NCBI RefSeq assembly: GCF_016865485.1
Contig: NZ_AP024452.1
Location: 1,758,501-1,822,500 of the forward strand
Origin: Luteitalea sp. TBR-22
GTDB taxonomy: Bacteria; Acidobacteriota; Vicinamibacteria; Vicinamibacterales; Vicinamibacteraceae
DNA: 64,000 nt
Direction of reading: 5' to 3'
Positions 3,345 to 60,671 of the stretch are shown piece after piece. The notes beneath the pieces are model-generated. The model searched no databases. It was not told the DNA's origin and saw nothing but the letters and a program-made list of their open reading frames with translations. The translations under genes and the position numbers were made by a program. The first letter of the stretch is position 1. Every line of letters starts with the position of its first letter.

Positions 3345-4967
3345 ATGATGACGTCGACTGCACCTCACGGCAGCAGCCTCACCCCCACGCTGACCACGTC
3401 GCTTCCGCCCGCCCTGATGGCGCAGGCGGCGCGTCGGTTGCGCGTCATGGCGCTGCTCTACGCTGGCGTGTTCTTCGTTGCGGGCATCCTGCCGGTGCTG
3501 CTCCTGCCCGAGGAGCGCACCATCTTCTTCTCGCATCCGACCCGCTGGCTGCCGTCGGCGCTCTCGATCGGGACGGCGCTGGTGGTCGCCTTCGTCGCCG
3601 GTCGCCCCGCCCTCACACCGGAGGCGGTGGTGCGGCTCGGCTTGCTGTTCCAGGTCGTCGGCACGCTCGGCATCGCCTGGTCCGAGTACCTGCAGCCGGC
3701 CGACGGCACCACCGCGATGTCGCCGATGAAGGGCCTGTCGTGGGCGGCGGTGTGGATGCTGTCGTTCACGATCACGGTGCCGAGCCCGCCGCGCCAGGCC
3801 TTCACCGCCGCGATGAGCTCGGCCGTGATGGTGCCCCTGGTCGCCGCACTCGCCACGCGCTGGGGCTACCTGCCGTCGGTCTCGGGACCCGAGTTCTTCC
3901 TCCACGTCGTGCTGCCGTACCTCGTCGTGGTGGCCATCGCGGGGGTCGGCGCCCGCCTGGTCTACAGCCTCGGCGTCGACCTGAAGCGTGCGCAGGATCT
4001 CGGCAGCTATCAACTCGAGGAGCGCCTGGGCTTCGGCGGCATGGGCGAGGTGTGGCGGGCGCGGCACCGGCTGCTGGCGCGCCCGGCGGCCGTCAAGCTC
4101 ATTCGCCCGGAGGTCTTCGAGGCAGCCGGCATCGCGCGGCAGTCGGAACTGCGGCTGCGGTTCGAGCGCGAGGCGCAGACCACCGCGCTGCTGCAGTCAC
4201 CGCACACGATCCATCTGTTCGATTACGGCGTCACCGAAGAGGGCGCGTTCTACTACGTGATGGAACTGCTCGACGGCTTCGACCTGCGGACGCTGGTCGA
4301 CCGCTTCGGGCCGCTGCCGGTCGAGCGCGCCGTGCACCTGCTGGTGCAGGCGTGCCACTCGTTGGCCGAGGCGCACGCGGTGGGGCTGGTGCACCGGGAC
4401 ATCACGCCGGCCAACATCTTCGTGTGCCGGTACGGTCGCGACGTCGACTTCGTGAAGGTCCTCGACTTCGGCCTCGTCAAGCCGCACGAGACCAGCGTGC
4501 GCGACGAGTCGATCGCGCGCCGCGATCGCGTCGGCGGCACGCCGGCGTTCATGTCGCCCGAACAGGCGCTGGCCGATCGGCCCATCGACGCGCGGTCGGA
4601 CCTCTACGCCCTCGGCTGCGTGGGGTACTGGCTGGTCACCGGCGCCGTGGTGTTCCCCCGCAACACGCCCATGGCCATGGCAGTGGCGCACACGCAGGCC
4701 GTGCCGGAGCCGCCGTCGGCACGGACCGAACTGCCGATCCCGCCCGAGTTCGACGCGCTGATCCTCGAGTGCCTGGCCAAGGCGCCCGAGGATCGGCCGC
4801 CGTCGGCCGAGGACCTCGCGCAACGCCTGCAACGGCTCACCGGCTTGCCTCCCTGGGAGCGCGCCCAGGCGCGCGCCTGGTGGAACCTTCACAAACCGAT
4901 CGATCCGGCCCGCAAGCGGTTGGCCGCCGACACGACCGCCGTGCGCACGGTGCGGCCGAGGCGGTAG
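3345..4967 (+). CDS. Membrane Ser/Thr protein kinase, N-terminal six-TM sensor
   Basis: This is a 540-residue eukaryotic-type kinase. About six hydrophobic segments fill residues 30-210, followed by a C-terminal cytosolic kinase. Kinase motifs: glycine loop GFGGMGEVW from residue 229, ATP lysine in AVKLI (K251), catalytic loop HRDITPAN with D352 and N357, DFG at 374-376, and GTPAFMSPEQ as the activation-segment end. The lysine usual two residues after the catalytic Asp (HRDIK) is Thr here. Most bacterial STKs of this type carry the kinase first and the membrane anchor second; this order is reversed, so the membrane domain may be the sensor. Start codons at 3345 and 3348 are both possible; no good ribosome site is visible. 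Confidence 0.88.
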   Translation: MMTSTAPHGSSLTPTLTTSLPPALMAQAARRLRVMALLYAGVFFVAGILPVLLLPEERTIFFSHPTRWLPSALSIGTALVVAFVAGRPALTPEAVVRLGLLFQVVGTLGIAWSEYLQPADGTTAMSPMKGLSWAAVWMLSFTITVPSPPRQAFTAAMSSAVMVPLVAALATRWGYLPSVSGPEFFLHVVLPYLVVVAIAGVGARLVYSLGVDLKRAQDLGSYQLEERLGFGGMGEVWRARHRLLARPAAVKLIRPEVFEAAGIARQSELRLRFEREAQTTALLQSPHTIHLFDYGVTEEGAFYYVMELLDGFDLRTLVDRFGPLPVERAVHLLVQACHSLAEAHAVGLVHRDITPANIFVCRYGRDVDFVKVLDFGLVKPHETSVRDESIARRDRVGGTPAFMSPEQALADRPIDARSDLYALGCVGYWLVTGAVVFPRNTPMAMAVAHTQAVPEPPSARTELPIPPEFDALILECLAKAPEDRPPSAEDLAQRLQRLTGLPPWERAQARAWWNLHKPIDPARKRLAADTTAVRTVRPRR

Positions 4968-4977
4968 GGCAGGAACT

Positions 4978-4998
4978 CCCGAACGCCGAACGGCGAAC
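4978..4998. repeat. Heptamer repeat, three GCCGAAC-type units
   Basis: Units cccgaac, gccgaac and ggcgaac follow in exact 7-base phase, starting 10 bases after the kinase stop codon. The same word recurs at 5806, 50277 and 57182. Confidence 0.5.
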
Positions 4999-5066
4999 GA
5001 GAACGACGGAGGCTACCCAGCGGGGCGGGCGAATCTGCGATACCGTGCTGGCGTCGGAGGTCGTGC

Positions 5067-5762
5067 ATGGCCAGGCAGCCCCTCGTCCACATCGTCGGCA
5101 TCGACTGCGCCACGCGCGAGGCGAGCACCGGCGTCTGTCTCGCCACGTGGGATGGACGCCACCTCACGATCGCGGAGGCGTGCACCTGTCGTCCCGACCG
5201 AACGGCCGAGGATGCCGCGCGCGGCTGGCTCGCCGACGCCCCCAGCGGCATCGTGGCCCTCGATGCCCCCCTGGGCTGGCCCGACCCGCTCACTTGCGCG
5301 CTGGCCGACCACCAGGCCGGCGGACGCCTGCCGTTCGTGGCCGACGACCTCTTCGCGCGCGAGACCGATCGCGCCATCACCCGACGTCACGGCCGCACCC
5401 CGCCGCACATCGACGGCAACCAGGTGGCGCGCACGTCCCTCGCCGCGCTGCACCTGCTGTCGCGTCTGCGCGAGGACCTGGGGCGCCCGATTCCCCTTGC
5501 CTGGGCCTCCGGCGCGCCCGACGGGCTGGTCGCCATCGAGGTGTTTCCGGCGGCCACCGCTCGCGCGCACGGCCAGGACGGCACGCTGCCCTCGTGGGTC
5601 ACGCCCAACCCGCACCCGGCGATGACCCGGACCATGCACGCGCGCGACGCGATCCTGTCGGCCGTCGCCGCCGTGGACATGCTCGAGGGCCGCGCCGTGC
5701 CGCCACGCGGCGCCGAACAGGAACGGCTGTCGCGGCGCGAGGGATGGATCTGGGCCAGGTAG
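5067..5762 (+). CDS. DUF429 family protein
   Basis: The product has 231 residues with no signal peptide. The features fit DUF429, an RNase-H-like-fold family of unknown function: N-terminal GIDCA at residues 11-15, IVALDAPLGWP near 62-72, a central ETDRAI and HIDG region, and the late EVFPAA and DAILSAVAAVDMLEG helix. The acidic residues in GID, ALDAP and RDA would form a metal site if the fold is catalytic; that is inference. It stands alone between the kinase gene and a convergent secreted protein. Confidence 0.75.
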   Translation: MARQPLVHIVGIDCATREASTGVCLATWDGRHLTIAEACTCRPDRTAEDAARGWLADAPSGIVALDAPLGWPDPLTCALADHQAGGRLPFVADDLFARETDRAITRRHGRTPPHIDGNQVARTSLAALHLLSRLREDLGRPIPLAWASGAPDGLVAIEVFPAATARAHGQDGTLPSWVTPNPHPAMTRTMHARDAILSAVAAVDMLEGRAVPPRGAEQERLSRREGWIWAR

Positions 5763-5763
5763 T

Positions 5764-5819
5764 GTTTGACGTTTGACGTTTGACGTCGAGCGCCGAGCGC
5801 CGGACGCCGAACGCGGAGG
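5764..5819. repeat. Heptamer array with drifting word (GTTTGAC to GCCGAAC)
   Basis: Eight consecutive 7-base units start two bases after the DUF429 stop: gtttgac three times, then gtcgagc, gccgagc, gccggac, gccgaac and gcggagg. Phase is never lost although the word changes stepwise along the array. It lies between two convergent genes. Confidence 0.8.
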
Positions 5820-5852
5820 CGTCGGCTGCCGCGCGATCGTGACACGCCCGCG

Positions 5853-6491
5853 TCAGCCCCCCGGCCTGGTCGTGCCAGTGGGCACCTTCCGGATGGCGTT
5901 CATGAACTGCGCGTTGGTCAGCACGTTGCTGGCCAGGTCGAGGATCGCTGACGTGATCGTCTCCGTGTAGTTGAGGCGCCGCATCCGCCGCCCCCAGTTC
6001 TCCCCGCGGCCGGTGGCGAGCGCCGCCCAGACCTCCGCGCCCTCCCTGTTTGTCAGGCGCAGGCGTACTCGCACGGTGCCGGTGTACGTCTCGCCGTCGT
6101 CGATCCAGAACTGGGTGAGCTCGCCGGTGAGTGTCAGGTCTGCGTCCTCCGTGACGAGATCGAGCCCGCCACTTGCCAGCTCACGTCGCAGGTGCTGGTC
6201 GACGAACGCCGCCACGTCGGTGCCCGTCACGACACGCGTGTTGCGACCGGTGACGTCGCCGATGGACGTGCGGTCCTCGCGCGCGTCCGCCAATGGCACC
6301 ACGCGCAGCCGCTCGAGGCCGCCCGTGAGATCCACCACGGGCACGGCAGGGACTTCCCGCGGTGTCCATTCCAGCGGGACGTCGAACGACTTGACGGGTG
6401 GCTGCGCGGCCACGCGCGCGCCAGCCAACAGCGCGATCGCGGCGACCGCCACGATGGCGAAGCTGCGTGTGGGCCGTGAGTGGTGAGGCAT
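5853..6491 (-). CDS. Secreted protein of unknown function, YajG-like
   Basis: This is a 212-residue protein with a signal peptide ending near residue 29 (VAAQ). The mature part begins with a VPLEW...VPVVDL segment. A typical 'resistance to degeneracy' alpha/beta pattern follows: VVPLADARED, a VAAFVDQHLRRELASGG helix, ADLTLTGELTQFWID, and YTGTVRVRLRLTN. This layout resembles YajG/LptE-like small periplasmic proteins that carry a variable N-strand followed by an amphipathic helix. No lipobox is present. Function unknown; the family call is tentative. Confidence 0.7.
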   Translation of the reverse strand: MPHHSRPTRSFAIVAVAAIALLAGARVAAQPPVKSFDVPLEWTPREVPAVPVVDLTGGLERLRVVPLADAREDRTSIGDVTGRNTRVVTGTDVAAFVDQHLRRELASGGLDLVTEDADLTLTGELTQFWIDDGETYTGTVRVRLRLTNREGAEVWAALATGRGENWGRRMRRLNYTETITSAILDLASNVLTNAQFMNAIRKVPTGTTRPGG

Positions 6492-6526
6492 GTGGATTCT
6501 TCCTCGTTACCCGGCACTCCGTGCGC

Positions 6527-6596
6527 GGTGCCCGGTGCCCGGTGCCCGACGTCCGCTGCCCGGTGCCCGGTGCCCGGTGCCCGGTGCCCGGTGCTA
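6527..6596. repeat. GGTGCCC heptamer array, ten units
   Basis: Ten 7-base units lie in unbroken phase: ggtgccc three times, gacgtcc, gctgccc, ggtgccc four times, ggtgcta. The last unit contains the stop codon of the minus-strand DUF1080 gene (complement of cta, 6594-6596). Weaker units (ggcactc, cgtgcgc) extend it to 6513. The same word forms the array at 51344. Confidence 0.9.
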
Positions 6597-7442
6597 GTAC
6601 CGGCAACTCCCCGGCTCGTCGTGGACGATGTAGCGCTTGTAGTTGCGCGCCTTGGGGTCGCGGCACCCCGACAGGTTCAGGAGCTCCACCTTGCGGAAGT
6701 CGACCGGGTGGCTCTCCGACTGCAGGGAAATCGACCCGCTCGTCAGCAGCGTCCCATCGACCTTCTGGCGCGGGTCATGGTTGGTGACGTTGCCGCCGCC
6801 CACCTGCGGGCGCTGGTACTCGAGCACGACCTGCCCGTTCACCACGTGACGGATGAACTCGCCGCCGTGCACGTGCGCCTCCGCGCGCACCCATTGGTCG
6901 CCGTCGAAGGTCGCCGACGACGAGTTCTGGCAGTGTCGGGTGAACAGCACGCCGTTCATCTCGACGTTGGTTCCGGGCGTGCACAGGTTGGCCGTGGTGC
7001 GCGGGCCCTTGCCCAGGCCACCGAGCAACTGCACCTCGATCGAGATCGGGAAGTCCTGCTCGCGCTGCATGGTCTGCGCGGGTTGGCCGTGGACCATGAT
7101 GCCGCTGTTGCGCGTCGCCCAACCGGGGCCGCCGGACACCTGATCGCCGACGAAGCGGTACTCGACCGCCACGACGTAGTACGAGAAGGCATCCTTGTAG
7201 AACAGGTGCCCGAACCGTTCCTTGAAGGTGTCGTACTCGTCGTAGCGCACCTTCAGCAGGCCGTCCTCGACGCGGAACGTGTGCAGCGCGTTCTCGCCGA
7301 CCGGGTAGCCGGTGATCTTCGGGGTCCATCCCGCCAGGCTCTTGCCGTCGAACAACTGGATCCAGTCCTCTCGGTCGGCAGGCGCCTGCGCGGCAGAGAG
7401 GACCGCCCCGGCGACCAGCACCCACGGCAGCAGCAGCTTCAT
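6594..7442 (-). CDS. DUF1080 (3-keto-disaccharide hydrolase-type) secreted protein
   Basis: The product has 282 residues with a signal peptide (about 1-20). The DUF1080/GH16-like concanavalin fold is shown by WIQLFDGKSLAGW near the N-terminus, then RFVGDQVSGGPGWATRNSGIMVHGQ, SIEVQLLGG and the late ISLQSESHPVDFRKVELL strand. Members bind or cleave sugars such as 3-keto-glucosides outside the cytoplasm. The C-terminal tail has a Cys pair (GCRDPKARN...GSCRY) not needed by the fold. ATG 7442 is chosen over GTG 7451 because AGGTGA precedes it by five bases. Two relatives lie at 37204 and 38160. Confidence 0.85.
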   Translation of the reverse strand: MKLLLPWVLVAGAVLSAAQAPADREDWIQLFDGKSLAGWTPKITGYPVGENALHTFRVEDGLLKVRYDEYDTFKERFGHLFYKDAFSYYVVAVEYRFVGDQVSGGPGWATRNSGIMVHGQPAQTMQREQDFPISIEVQLLGGLGKGPRTTANLCTPGTNVEMNGVLFTRHCQNSSSATFDGDQWVRAEAHVHGGEFIRHVVNGQVVLEYQRPQVGGGNVTNHDPRQKVDGTLLTSGSISLQSESHPVDFRKVELLNLSGCRDPKARNYKRYIVHDEPGSCRY

Positions 7443-7593
7443 CGCGGTCACCTGGCGCTGGCCGCAATGAGGGCCGCAAGGCAGGACGAGACGAGCGGTG
7501 GGACGTCGACGGCGGCGGGCAGCACACGCATGGCGACAAGAGTAGCCGAGGATGAGGGGCCGGTTCGCCGCGCCCCTCGAGGACCGCCAGGGG

Positions 7594-8481
7594 CTATGCG
7601 AGCTTCGCCTTGAAGAACTCCAGCGTGCGCGTCCACGCCAGTTTCGCCGAGGCCTCGTCGTAGCGCGGCGTCGTATCGTTGTGGAAGCCGTGCTGCGCGC
7701 CGGGGTACATGTGCGCGGTGTAGGTCACGCCTGCAGCCTTCAGCGCCGCCTCGTAGGCCGGCCAGGCCGCGTTGATGCGCTCGTCCTTCTCGGCCAGGTG
7801 CACGAGCAGCGGCGCCTTCACGGTCGCGGCGTTCTCGGGGGGCGGCGTGTTGCCGTAGAACGGCACCGCGGCCGCCAGATCCGGCAGCCTGGTGGCGAGC
7901 AGGTGCGCGATGCCGCCGCCGTAGCAGAAGCCCACCACGCCGACCTTGCCGGTGCAGTCCGCGTGTCCCTTCAGGAAGCGGAACGCCGCCATCATGTCCT
8001 CGCGCGTCTTCGGCTGCTCGAGGGTCGCGAAGAGCGCGCGGGCCTTGTCCTCGTCGCCGGGATAGCCGCCGAGTGGCGCGAGCGCGTCGGGCGCGAGCAC
8101 CACGAAGCCCTCCAGCGCGAACCGCCGGGCGACGTCCTCGATGTGTGGGTTGAGGCCACGGTTCTCGTGGACGACGAGCACGCCCGGCTGCTTGCCCGTG
8201 GCGGCCTTCGCCTTCACGAGGTATCCGCGCGTCGTCGGGTAACCCTGCGGTGATGGGTACGTCACCGACTCGGTCACCAGCCGGGCGTCGTCGCGGGCGA
8301 TCACCTGCGCCTCGGCGAACCGCGGGTTGAGCGCGTCGAGCAGCATCGCGGCCGTCACCCCGCCCACGGCGAACCTGCTGGCGCGATCGAGGAAGCCACG
8401 CCGGTCGATGTCGCCGTGGACGTACGCGTCGAACAGGATCAGCAGTTCCTCGTCGAAATCGGCTGCGGTCTTGCGTTCCAT
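7594..8481 (-). CDS. Tat-exported dienelactone hydrolase family protein
   Basis: This is a 295-residue alpha/beta hydrolase. ATG 8481 has AGGGAGA five bases upstream. A Tat-like RRGFLDRAS motif (residues 27-35) precedes a hydrophobic stretch. Like YghX-type proteins, it has about 25 residues ahead of the twin arginine. The dienelactone hydrolase triad is readable: nucleophile Cys186 in GFCYGG, Asp233 in EKDERI and His264 in GAQHGF. Classical DLH opens dienelactones in chlorocatechol breakdown, but no such pathway genes are nearby, so the substrate is open. A 112-base same-strand gap separates it from the DUF1080 start. Confidence 0.88.
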   Translation of the reverse strand: MERKTAADFDEELLILFDAYVHGDIDRRGFLDRASRFAVGGVTAAMLLDALNPRFAEAQVIARDDARLVTESVTYPSPQGYPTTRGYLVKAKAATGKQPGVLVVHENRGLNPHIEDVARRFALEGFVVLAPDALAPLGGYPGDEDKARALFATLEQPKTREDMMAAFRFLKGHADCTGKVGVVGFCYGGGIAHLLATRLPDLAAAVPFYGNTPPPENAATVKAPLLVHLAEKDERINAAWPAYEAALKAAGVTYTAHMYPGAQHGFHNDTTPRYDEASAKLAWTRTLEFFKAKLA

Positions 8482-60347: not shown

Positions 60348-60424
60348 CGGGGCGTAGCTCAGCCTGGTAGAGCGCTCGCTTTGGGAGCGAGAAGTCGCAG
60401 GTTCGAATCCTGTCGCCCCGACCA
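60348..60424 (+). tRNA. tRNA-Pro (anticodon TGG)
   Basis: A complete cloverleaf. Acceptor stem CGGGGCG (60348-60354) pairs with CGCCCCG (60414-60420); discriminator A at 60421 and an encoded CCA (60422-60424). Anticodon stem CTCGC/GCGAG with loop TTTGGGA, anticodon TGG. T-arm GCAGGTTCGAATCCTGT. The gene reads on the plus strand. Confidence 0.97.
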
Positions 60425-60493
60425 TCCTCACTGCGTTCGTCTGGTCGGCGCGACCGCCTTCAGGCCCGCGGCTCCGCCTGCGGCTCGCCGTCG

Positions 60494-60620
60494 GGCTCAA
60501 ATCCTGTCGCCCCCGCACCGTTGCTCGCCTGCGGCTCGCTCGGTCTCTGCGTCTTCAGGGGCACGCCGTCGGGTTCGAATCCTGTCGCCCACACCGTTGC
60601 TCGGCTGCGTCTCGCTCGGT
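60494..60620 (+). repeat. Two degenerate copies of the tRNA-Pro 3' end
   Basis: The T-arm/acceptor segment ggttcgaatcctgtcgccc of tRNA-Pro (60400) recurs as ggctcaaatcctgtcgcccc at 60494-60513 and ggttcgaatcctgtcgccc at 60572-60590. Downstream flanks also match each other (accgttgctcg-c/g-ctgcg at 60517 and 60593). Spacings are 94 and 78 bases. No integrase or other element remnant lies between the copies. Confidence 0.75.
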
Positions 60621-60623
60621 CCG

Positions 60624-60671
60624 GCATTCCCGGCAGTTCCGCATCGTCGCATCGCGGCATGCGGCATCGCC
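60624..60671. repeat. GCATCGCC-type octamer array
   Basis: Units gcattccc (60624), then gcatcgtc, gcatcgcg, gcatgcg (one base short) and gcatcgcc (60641-60671). Words match the array that precedes the macro-SIR2 start codon. Confidence 0.45.

Follow-up and report, generated by a model that had tools for sequence, protein, structure and literature searches.

The window analysed here was a 64-kb stretch (64,000 nucleotides) of the genome of Luteitalea sp. TBR-22 (G000), a single contig of 6,468,984 bases; the chromosome is reported to have 70.5% G+C (PMC8852301). Eight tandem heptamers were confirmed on the plus strand at positions 5764 to 5819: GTTTGAC three times, then GTCGAGC, GCCGAGC, GCCGGAC, GCCGAAC and GCGGAGG. 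The repeat scan placed the end of the array at 5817, the last unit belonging to it only in part. The array sat in a 90-nt gap, starting 1 base past the TAG stop of a DUF429 gene and facing the 3' end of an LptE-like gene on the minus strand. The features of the locus were:

5067 to 5762, plus strand: upstream gene, DUF429 (PF04250)
5760 to 5762, plus strand: TAG stop ending the upstream gene, at offset -4 from the first unit and in the same register as the repeat's TGA
5764 to 5784, plus strand: (GTTTGAC)x3, the stop-bearing block of the species-specific GTTTRAC family, read from the sequence
5785 to 5791, plus strand: pivot unit GTCGAGC, consisting of GT from the left word and CGAGC from the right word, with the breakpoint at about 5786/5787
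5792 to 5817, plus strand: GC-rich block GCCGAGC GCCGGAC GCCGAAC GCGGA(GG), from the sequence and the repeat scan
5853 to 6491, minus strand: convergent downstream gene, LptE-like (PF04390), with its start at 6452 according to the in-house caller
4979 to 4999, plus strand: short array (CCGAACG)x3, a related GC-rich word, 12 nt past the stop of a protein kinase gene

The period-7 score of the array was 24.5, which places it among heptanucleotide simple sequence repeats (a tandem 7-nt unit beyond chance). Twenty first-order Markov resamples of the window yielded one array scoring at least 14 in total, and the best score was 15.5; the real window contained six such period-7 arrays.

The distances between successive units were 0, 0, 4, 1, 2, 1 and 3. 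The first-pass annotation had described each unit as one to three bases from its neighbour, a description that broke down at the key step, where GTTTGAC changes to GTCGAGC by four substitutions. It had also seen the GTTTGAC and GCCGAAC families as bridged within the array; the two runs instead met at one in-phase breakpoint with no intermediates. The GTTTGAC and GCCGAGC runs differed at five of seven positions, and the single breakpoint accounted for the whole pivot with no extra changes left over. The second half (GCCGAGC, GCCGGAC, GCCGAAC) drifted stepwise, as first described. The array was thus mainly a seam between two repeat stocks and not a gradual ladder: a GTTTGAC block 1 base past an in-register stop, joined in phase to a GC-rich block.

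A congener (G001; 7,480,314 bases) had no DNA match for 4942 to 7612 of the window at the syntenic place, so that the array was without an orthologous site for comparison there. This part of the window holds the DUF429, LptE-like and 3-keto-disaccharide hydrolase genes, and G001 has 571 bases between the flanking matches. The search for an orthologue of the upstream DUF429 gene gave one distant Bacteroidia locus, at 32% identity.

Period-7 arrays were surveyed in the window plus 60 evenly spaced 20-kb stretches of G000 (1.264 Mb) and in 20 stretches of G001 (0.4 Mb; 19 evenly spaced and one picked for synteny with the window). In total, 121 arrays were found in the G000 sample and 65 in the G001 sample. 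Every other period from 4 to 18 gave at most 18 arrays in the G000 sample, except the harmonic period 14 (80 arrays). Sixteen of the 121 arrays were genic and four lay at stretch ends; period 7 was over-represented and mainly intergenic.

Neighbouring units within arrays were more alike than shuffled ones. The interior-neighbour distance sum was 312 for 34 G000 arrays (shuffle mean 493, minimum 438) and 219 for 25 G001 arrays (shuffle mean 334, minimum 284), with 1000 shuffles each. Single substitutions made up 166 of 270 interior changes in G000 and 85 of 169 in G001. A scan for switches between runs of at least two copies, wider than the samples through the addition of targeted and syntenic stretches, found 113 run switches: 65 between words one base apart, 22 between words two bases apart, and 26 between words three or more bases apart. 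Eight of these 26 large switches were pure in-phase jumps (the present seam and seven others); 18 were not pure. Ladders were seen elsewhere, at L175:187, L162:175 and L067:4145, the first of which runs through six intermediate words. The earlier proposal that the words derive from each other by slippage and mutation was therefore partly supported: graded neighbours and ladders in other arrays bear it out, while the key step of this array is a jump.

The same evidence bears on the reading in which a single array drifted in place, GTTTGAC becoming GCCGAAC stepwise through slippage and point mutation. The graded neighbours, the 65 one-base switches and the ladders are in its favour, as is one orthologous site at which the congener's word is similar without being identical (TAACGTT and TAACGGC at L124:3928; GAACGTC and GAACGCC at L155:1594). 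The four changes and clean in-phase breakpoint of the pivot speak against it, as do the sharing of one word across the species and the lack of a single-copy seed at 645 stops (both below). Such drift is an unlikely origin for the array.

Word stocks were compared within and between the two species. Pairs of arrays with the same dominant word numbered 731 of 7260 in G000, 70 of 2080 in G001 and 111 of 7865 across the two genomes; the rate for random words of this G+C is 0.26%. The GTTTRAC family pattern, TRACGTTTRACGTTTRAC, had 68 forward and 63 reverse matches in G000 and no match in any of the 148 further genomes drawn evenly across the order, four of them of the same genus (97 of the 149 genomes drawn pass 90% completeness and 5% contamination). 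Other words were searched as triples in 40 genomes per search, occurrences rather than arrays being counted. GGTCTCA triples numbered 0 in G000, 132 in G001 and 2 in G004; CTGAGCC triples 91, 14 and 22; CGGGAGT triples 226, 58 and 72; and GCCGAAC triples 32, 59 and 0, respectively. This uneven spread means that some words occur in more than one species. Overall, word stocks were common to loci within a species and largely different between congeners.

Among 118 orthologues, arrays were present in both species on eight 3' sides and on five 5' sides, where the margins predict 6.4 and 2.8, respectively, some gaps being entered from both sides. Conservation of array position between congeners was rejected, co-occurrence being little above independence. 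By eye, the words of the printed orthologous pairs mostly differed; the pair L045:3186 and L165:19248 had CGGGTAA in common. We read the heptamer words as a species-wide pool with fast turnover, a turnover visible only indirectly because array positions common to the congeners barely exceed independence.

A stop followed by CGTT occurred at 6 of 645 genes, and all six were already tandem. Growth from pre-existing single TRACGTT copies at stops was rejected, since no single copy was found among the 645 genes (a modest sample for an absence). Exchange between loci is suggested by this constant tandem state. Moreover, one word at many unlinked loci, absent from 148 other genomes and with no single-copy seed, seems to call for either inter-locus copying or selection favouring a single word.

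The placement of words relative to replication was assessed with the origin assumed at coordinate 0, the G000 terminus at about 3.1 Mb from a weak GC skew, and the G001 terminus assumed at mid-chromosome. The clusters for this test were picked by hand from listings, and the bias had been noticed before it was tested. In G000, GCCGAAC triple clusters were on the plus strand up to 2.60 Mb and on the minus strand from 3.22 Mb. GCCGAAC lay on the inferred leading strand in 18 of 18 clusters in G000 and 29 of 34 in G001, and CTGAGCC in 43 of 53 and 6 of 7, respectively. Genes were co-oriented with replication in 579 of 1042 cases in G000 and 195 of 331 in G001. Against this gene baseline the binomial tails were 2.6e-5 (G000) and 9e-4 (G001) for GCCGAAC and 9e-5 for CTGAGCC in G000. 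Little or no bias was found for GTTTRAC (26 of 39; tail 0.11) and GGTCTCA (24 of 47) among the matches listed. CGGGAGT in G001 was on the leading strand in 11 of 36 clusters, its C-rich complement being there in the other 25. By word class in the G000 sample, leading-strand arrays were 16 of 19 for CTGAGCC, 5 of 5 for GCCGAAC, 19 of 28 for ACTCCCG (the commonest word in the even sample) and 2 of 8 for ACCGGGC. Strong placement on the inferred leading strand was thus found for two of the six words tested, and a replication polarity of heptamer arrays, seen before it was tested, is possible.

The reading that we favour, with modest confidence, is that of a composite heptanucleotide repeat whose units have been reshuffled through slippage linked to replication and through in-phase exchange among loci. 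Arrays would lengthen and shorten through slippage by 7 nt, and point changes would spread to adjacent units, giving local ladders. Blocks may in addition be copied in register between arrays at different loci; such copying would keep period 7, give each species its own word stocks, and leave abrupt in-phase seams such as the one at 5764 to 5819. Word sharing points to copying between loci; selection or a shared bias could also give common words. The process would be tied to replication, a link suggested by the two words found mostly on the inferred leading strand.

The relation of arrays to stop codons was examined with genes from a simple in-house caller, independently of any annotation. Of the 104 stop-facing array edges in G000, 38 lay within 7 nt of a stop, as compared with 12.2 expected from random placement in the same gap (0 of 1000 placements had as many); in G001 the figure was 16 of 67, with 4.0 expected. 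Adjacency to stops was thus three to four times that of random placement. When the GTTTRAC family was left out, 31 of 93 G000 edges were still within 7 nt of a stop (11.0 expected). Neither the G000 nor the G001 sample had an excess of arrays before start codons.

Forty-six GTTTRAC clusters were available, among the matches listed (100 of 140 places) and from the sampled stretches. Forty of them began at the stop of a coding ORF, and in 32 of the 46 the stop was in phase with the repeat. As controls, the opposite strand gave 4 of 46 and random positions 98 of 2000. Restricted to the even sample, the counts were 9 of 10 clusters at a gene stop and 8 of 10 in register. Because 7 equals 1 modulo 3 and the word holds a stop, consecutive units put TGA or TAA in all three frames. 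At the present locus the TAG at 5760 is followed by TGA at 5767, 5774 and 5781 (+7, +14 and +21), after which the word changes. Random-frame insertion truncating genes was rejected as the main cause of these positions: of the 32 in-register loci, 26 had the gene stop as the first stop-unit of the array, 5 as the second and 1 as the third, as compared with the equal thirds expected. A neutral start at any intergenic TRACG was also rejected, as it predicts 8.8 in-register starts among the 46.

These results raise the prospect of a selected cassette, in which stop heptamers behind stop codons are retained because they terminate translation that has read through or shifted frame, chance stops being scarce in a genome of 70% G+C. 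All frames were closed within 25 nt at 36 of 40 GTTTRAC genes, as compared with 0.5% of 954 other genes; this, together with the 32 in-register starts where neutral TRACG choice predicts 8.8, and the gene stop being the first stop-unit at 26 of 32 loci, is what such a cassette would produce, and the G001 array at L188:10519 has TGA or TAA in nine successive units whose other bases vary. However, only about 1% of genes carry one (6 of 645 by stop and CGTT), the search pattern itself requires two stop-bearing units, and the stop positions along GTTTRAC arrays were not clearly better kept than neighbouring positions. Arrays without stop words adjoin stops too (the 31 of 93 edges above), four of seven in-register arrays in G001 lose the stop in the next unit, and a survey reports no selection for extra stops in bacteria, least of all in GC-rich ones (PMC6764699). 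Conserved run length was discarded as proof of selection: exact runs had a median of 3.0 units for other words (159 runs) and 2.9 to 5.9 units for GTTTRAC in the sample, with no clear difference. Selection for such a cassette is accordingly quite unlikely as the explanation, and the three-frame stop is a striking but unproven consequence of a 7-nt stop-bearing word. Distinctly doubtful, too, is a wider proposal, in which the heptamer pool would put stop words in register with gene stops as frame-independent terminators, spread by fork-oriented copying that writes in-phase seams. The 7-nt period would be functionally apt for such terminators, since 7 is coprime to 3.

Finally, it is highly improbable that the array acts at the RNA level, its 5' words pairing with 3' words to form a terminator or a hairpin that stabilises 3' ends between convergent genes: GUUUGAC can by inspection pair with GUCGAAC (with one G-U), and the mean folding z against shuffles was -2.6 at 24 GTTTRAC gene ends and -0.8 at 60 others, but the GTTTRAC ends were weaker in mean energy (-33.2 vs. 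-38.6 kcal/mol), the present locus was unremarkable (z -1.0 on one strand and -0.8 on the other), and no Rfam family was found at the array, the sole Rfam match in the window being a tRNA.

Returning to the favoured composite repeat, several known systems resemble it in part. Heptanucleotide repeats are reported to be over-represented in bacteria and have been tentatively tied to the stretch of DNA contacted by the polymerase (PMC4692102, PMC4679880). Mrazek's surveys, which the same two papers cite, describe long simple sequence repeats of heptanucleotides in bacteria; these are likewise 7-nt tandems, mostly intergenic, at many loci of large GC-rich genomes. In the present arrays, by contrast, successive words grade into each other or meet in phase, the words of congeners are different, and stop codons lie adjacent. 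The GGGNATC and GGGGA(C/T)T G-quadruplex heptamers of Xanthomonas and Nostoc (PMC4692102) are also intergenic and near stop codons. The G000 word CGGGAAT is the same repeat as their GGGAATC, and CGGGAGT is a variant; the GTTTGAC and GCCGAAC words, unlike these, are without a run of three G, and GGG was absent from 5764 to 5817.

TAACTGA direct repeats, described in Beggiatoaceae and cyanobacteria (PMC4679880), are dispersed heptamers that hold stops in all three frames and in some cases overlap the stop of the upstream ORF, so that a three-frame stop made by such a heptamer had been noted earlier. The GTTTRAC arrays resemble them in their forward three-frame stops (the 36 of 40 loci closed within 25 nt). 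The TAACTGA repeats are reported to lie mostly just before starts, with single-base variants rarely tandem, whereas here many related words lie past stops; the word is another one, and 40 of the 46 GTTTRAC clusters (among the matches listed and the stretches) were at gene ends. GTAG REP elements (PMC3733652) are dispersed extragenic repeats whose end often gives a TAG stop to the flanking ORF. They are, however, palindromes linked to RAYT transposases; the units at 5764 to 5819 repeat in direct orientation, and a GTAG-tagged palindrome was absent from 5764 to 5817. REP-like elements followed GTTTRAC arrays at 2 of 24 gene ends, as compared with 39 of 1184 others, too few to tell.

Such arrays were not described in the titles and abstract openings of part of the literature matching Luteitalea, Acidobacteria or Vicinamibacter with repeats or genomes, nor in those of the papers listed for three-frame stops, cyanobacterial heptamers, concerted evolution and replication-strand bias. 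Heptanucleotide repeats are already known, and the present family is a further variety of them, stop-anchored and species-specific, with seams that keep phase and perhaps with a polarity relative to replication. The dominance of heptamers among bacterial microsatellites is still unexplained, and these genomes bear on it. G000 and its congener hold hundreds of arrays with seams, species words, stop anchoring and apparent strand polarity, and with so many arrays slippage, inter-locus copying and selection could be told apart using few strains. Were the three-frame stop reading true, it would be a counterexample to the report of no selected extra stops in bacteria (PMC6764699).

Several other repeats were observed. 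A common flank often accompanied CTGAGCC arrays, aatgcttt preceding CTGAGCC and aaagca following GGCTCAG, as though the two had spread as one; arrays with this flank included L030:8429, L049:19648, L061:18506 and L028:3591. Inverted array copies shared one gap at L040:11046-11206 (GGCTCAG ... CTGAGCC) and L051:11947-12062 (CCTTGG ... CCAAGG) and could fold back. AT-rich heptamer arrays (AATTTGA/AATTTCA), some in inverted pairs, were present in this 70% G+C genome at L011:16745, L030:3349 and 3447, L050:7066 and L063:2881. REP-like palindromes beginning GTAG (gtagccgtcg...cgacgg) occurred in many gaps, including L013 at about 11700, L043 at about 9820 and L046 at about 8600; GTAG[CG]CGTCG or its complement was within 120 nt of 41 of 1208 gene ends. 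Within the window, a 76-bp tandem repeat of 1.9 copies was found at 60482 to 60627, shortly past the tRNA-Pro at 60348 to 60424.
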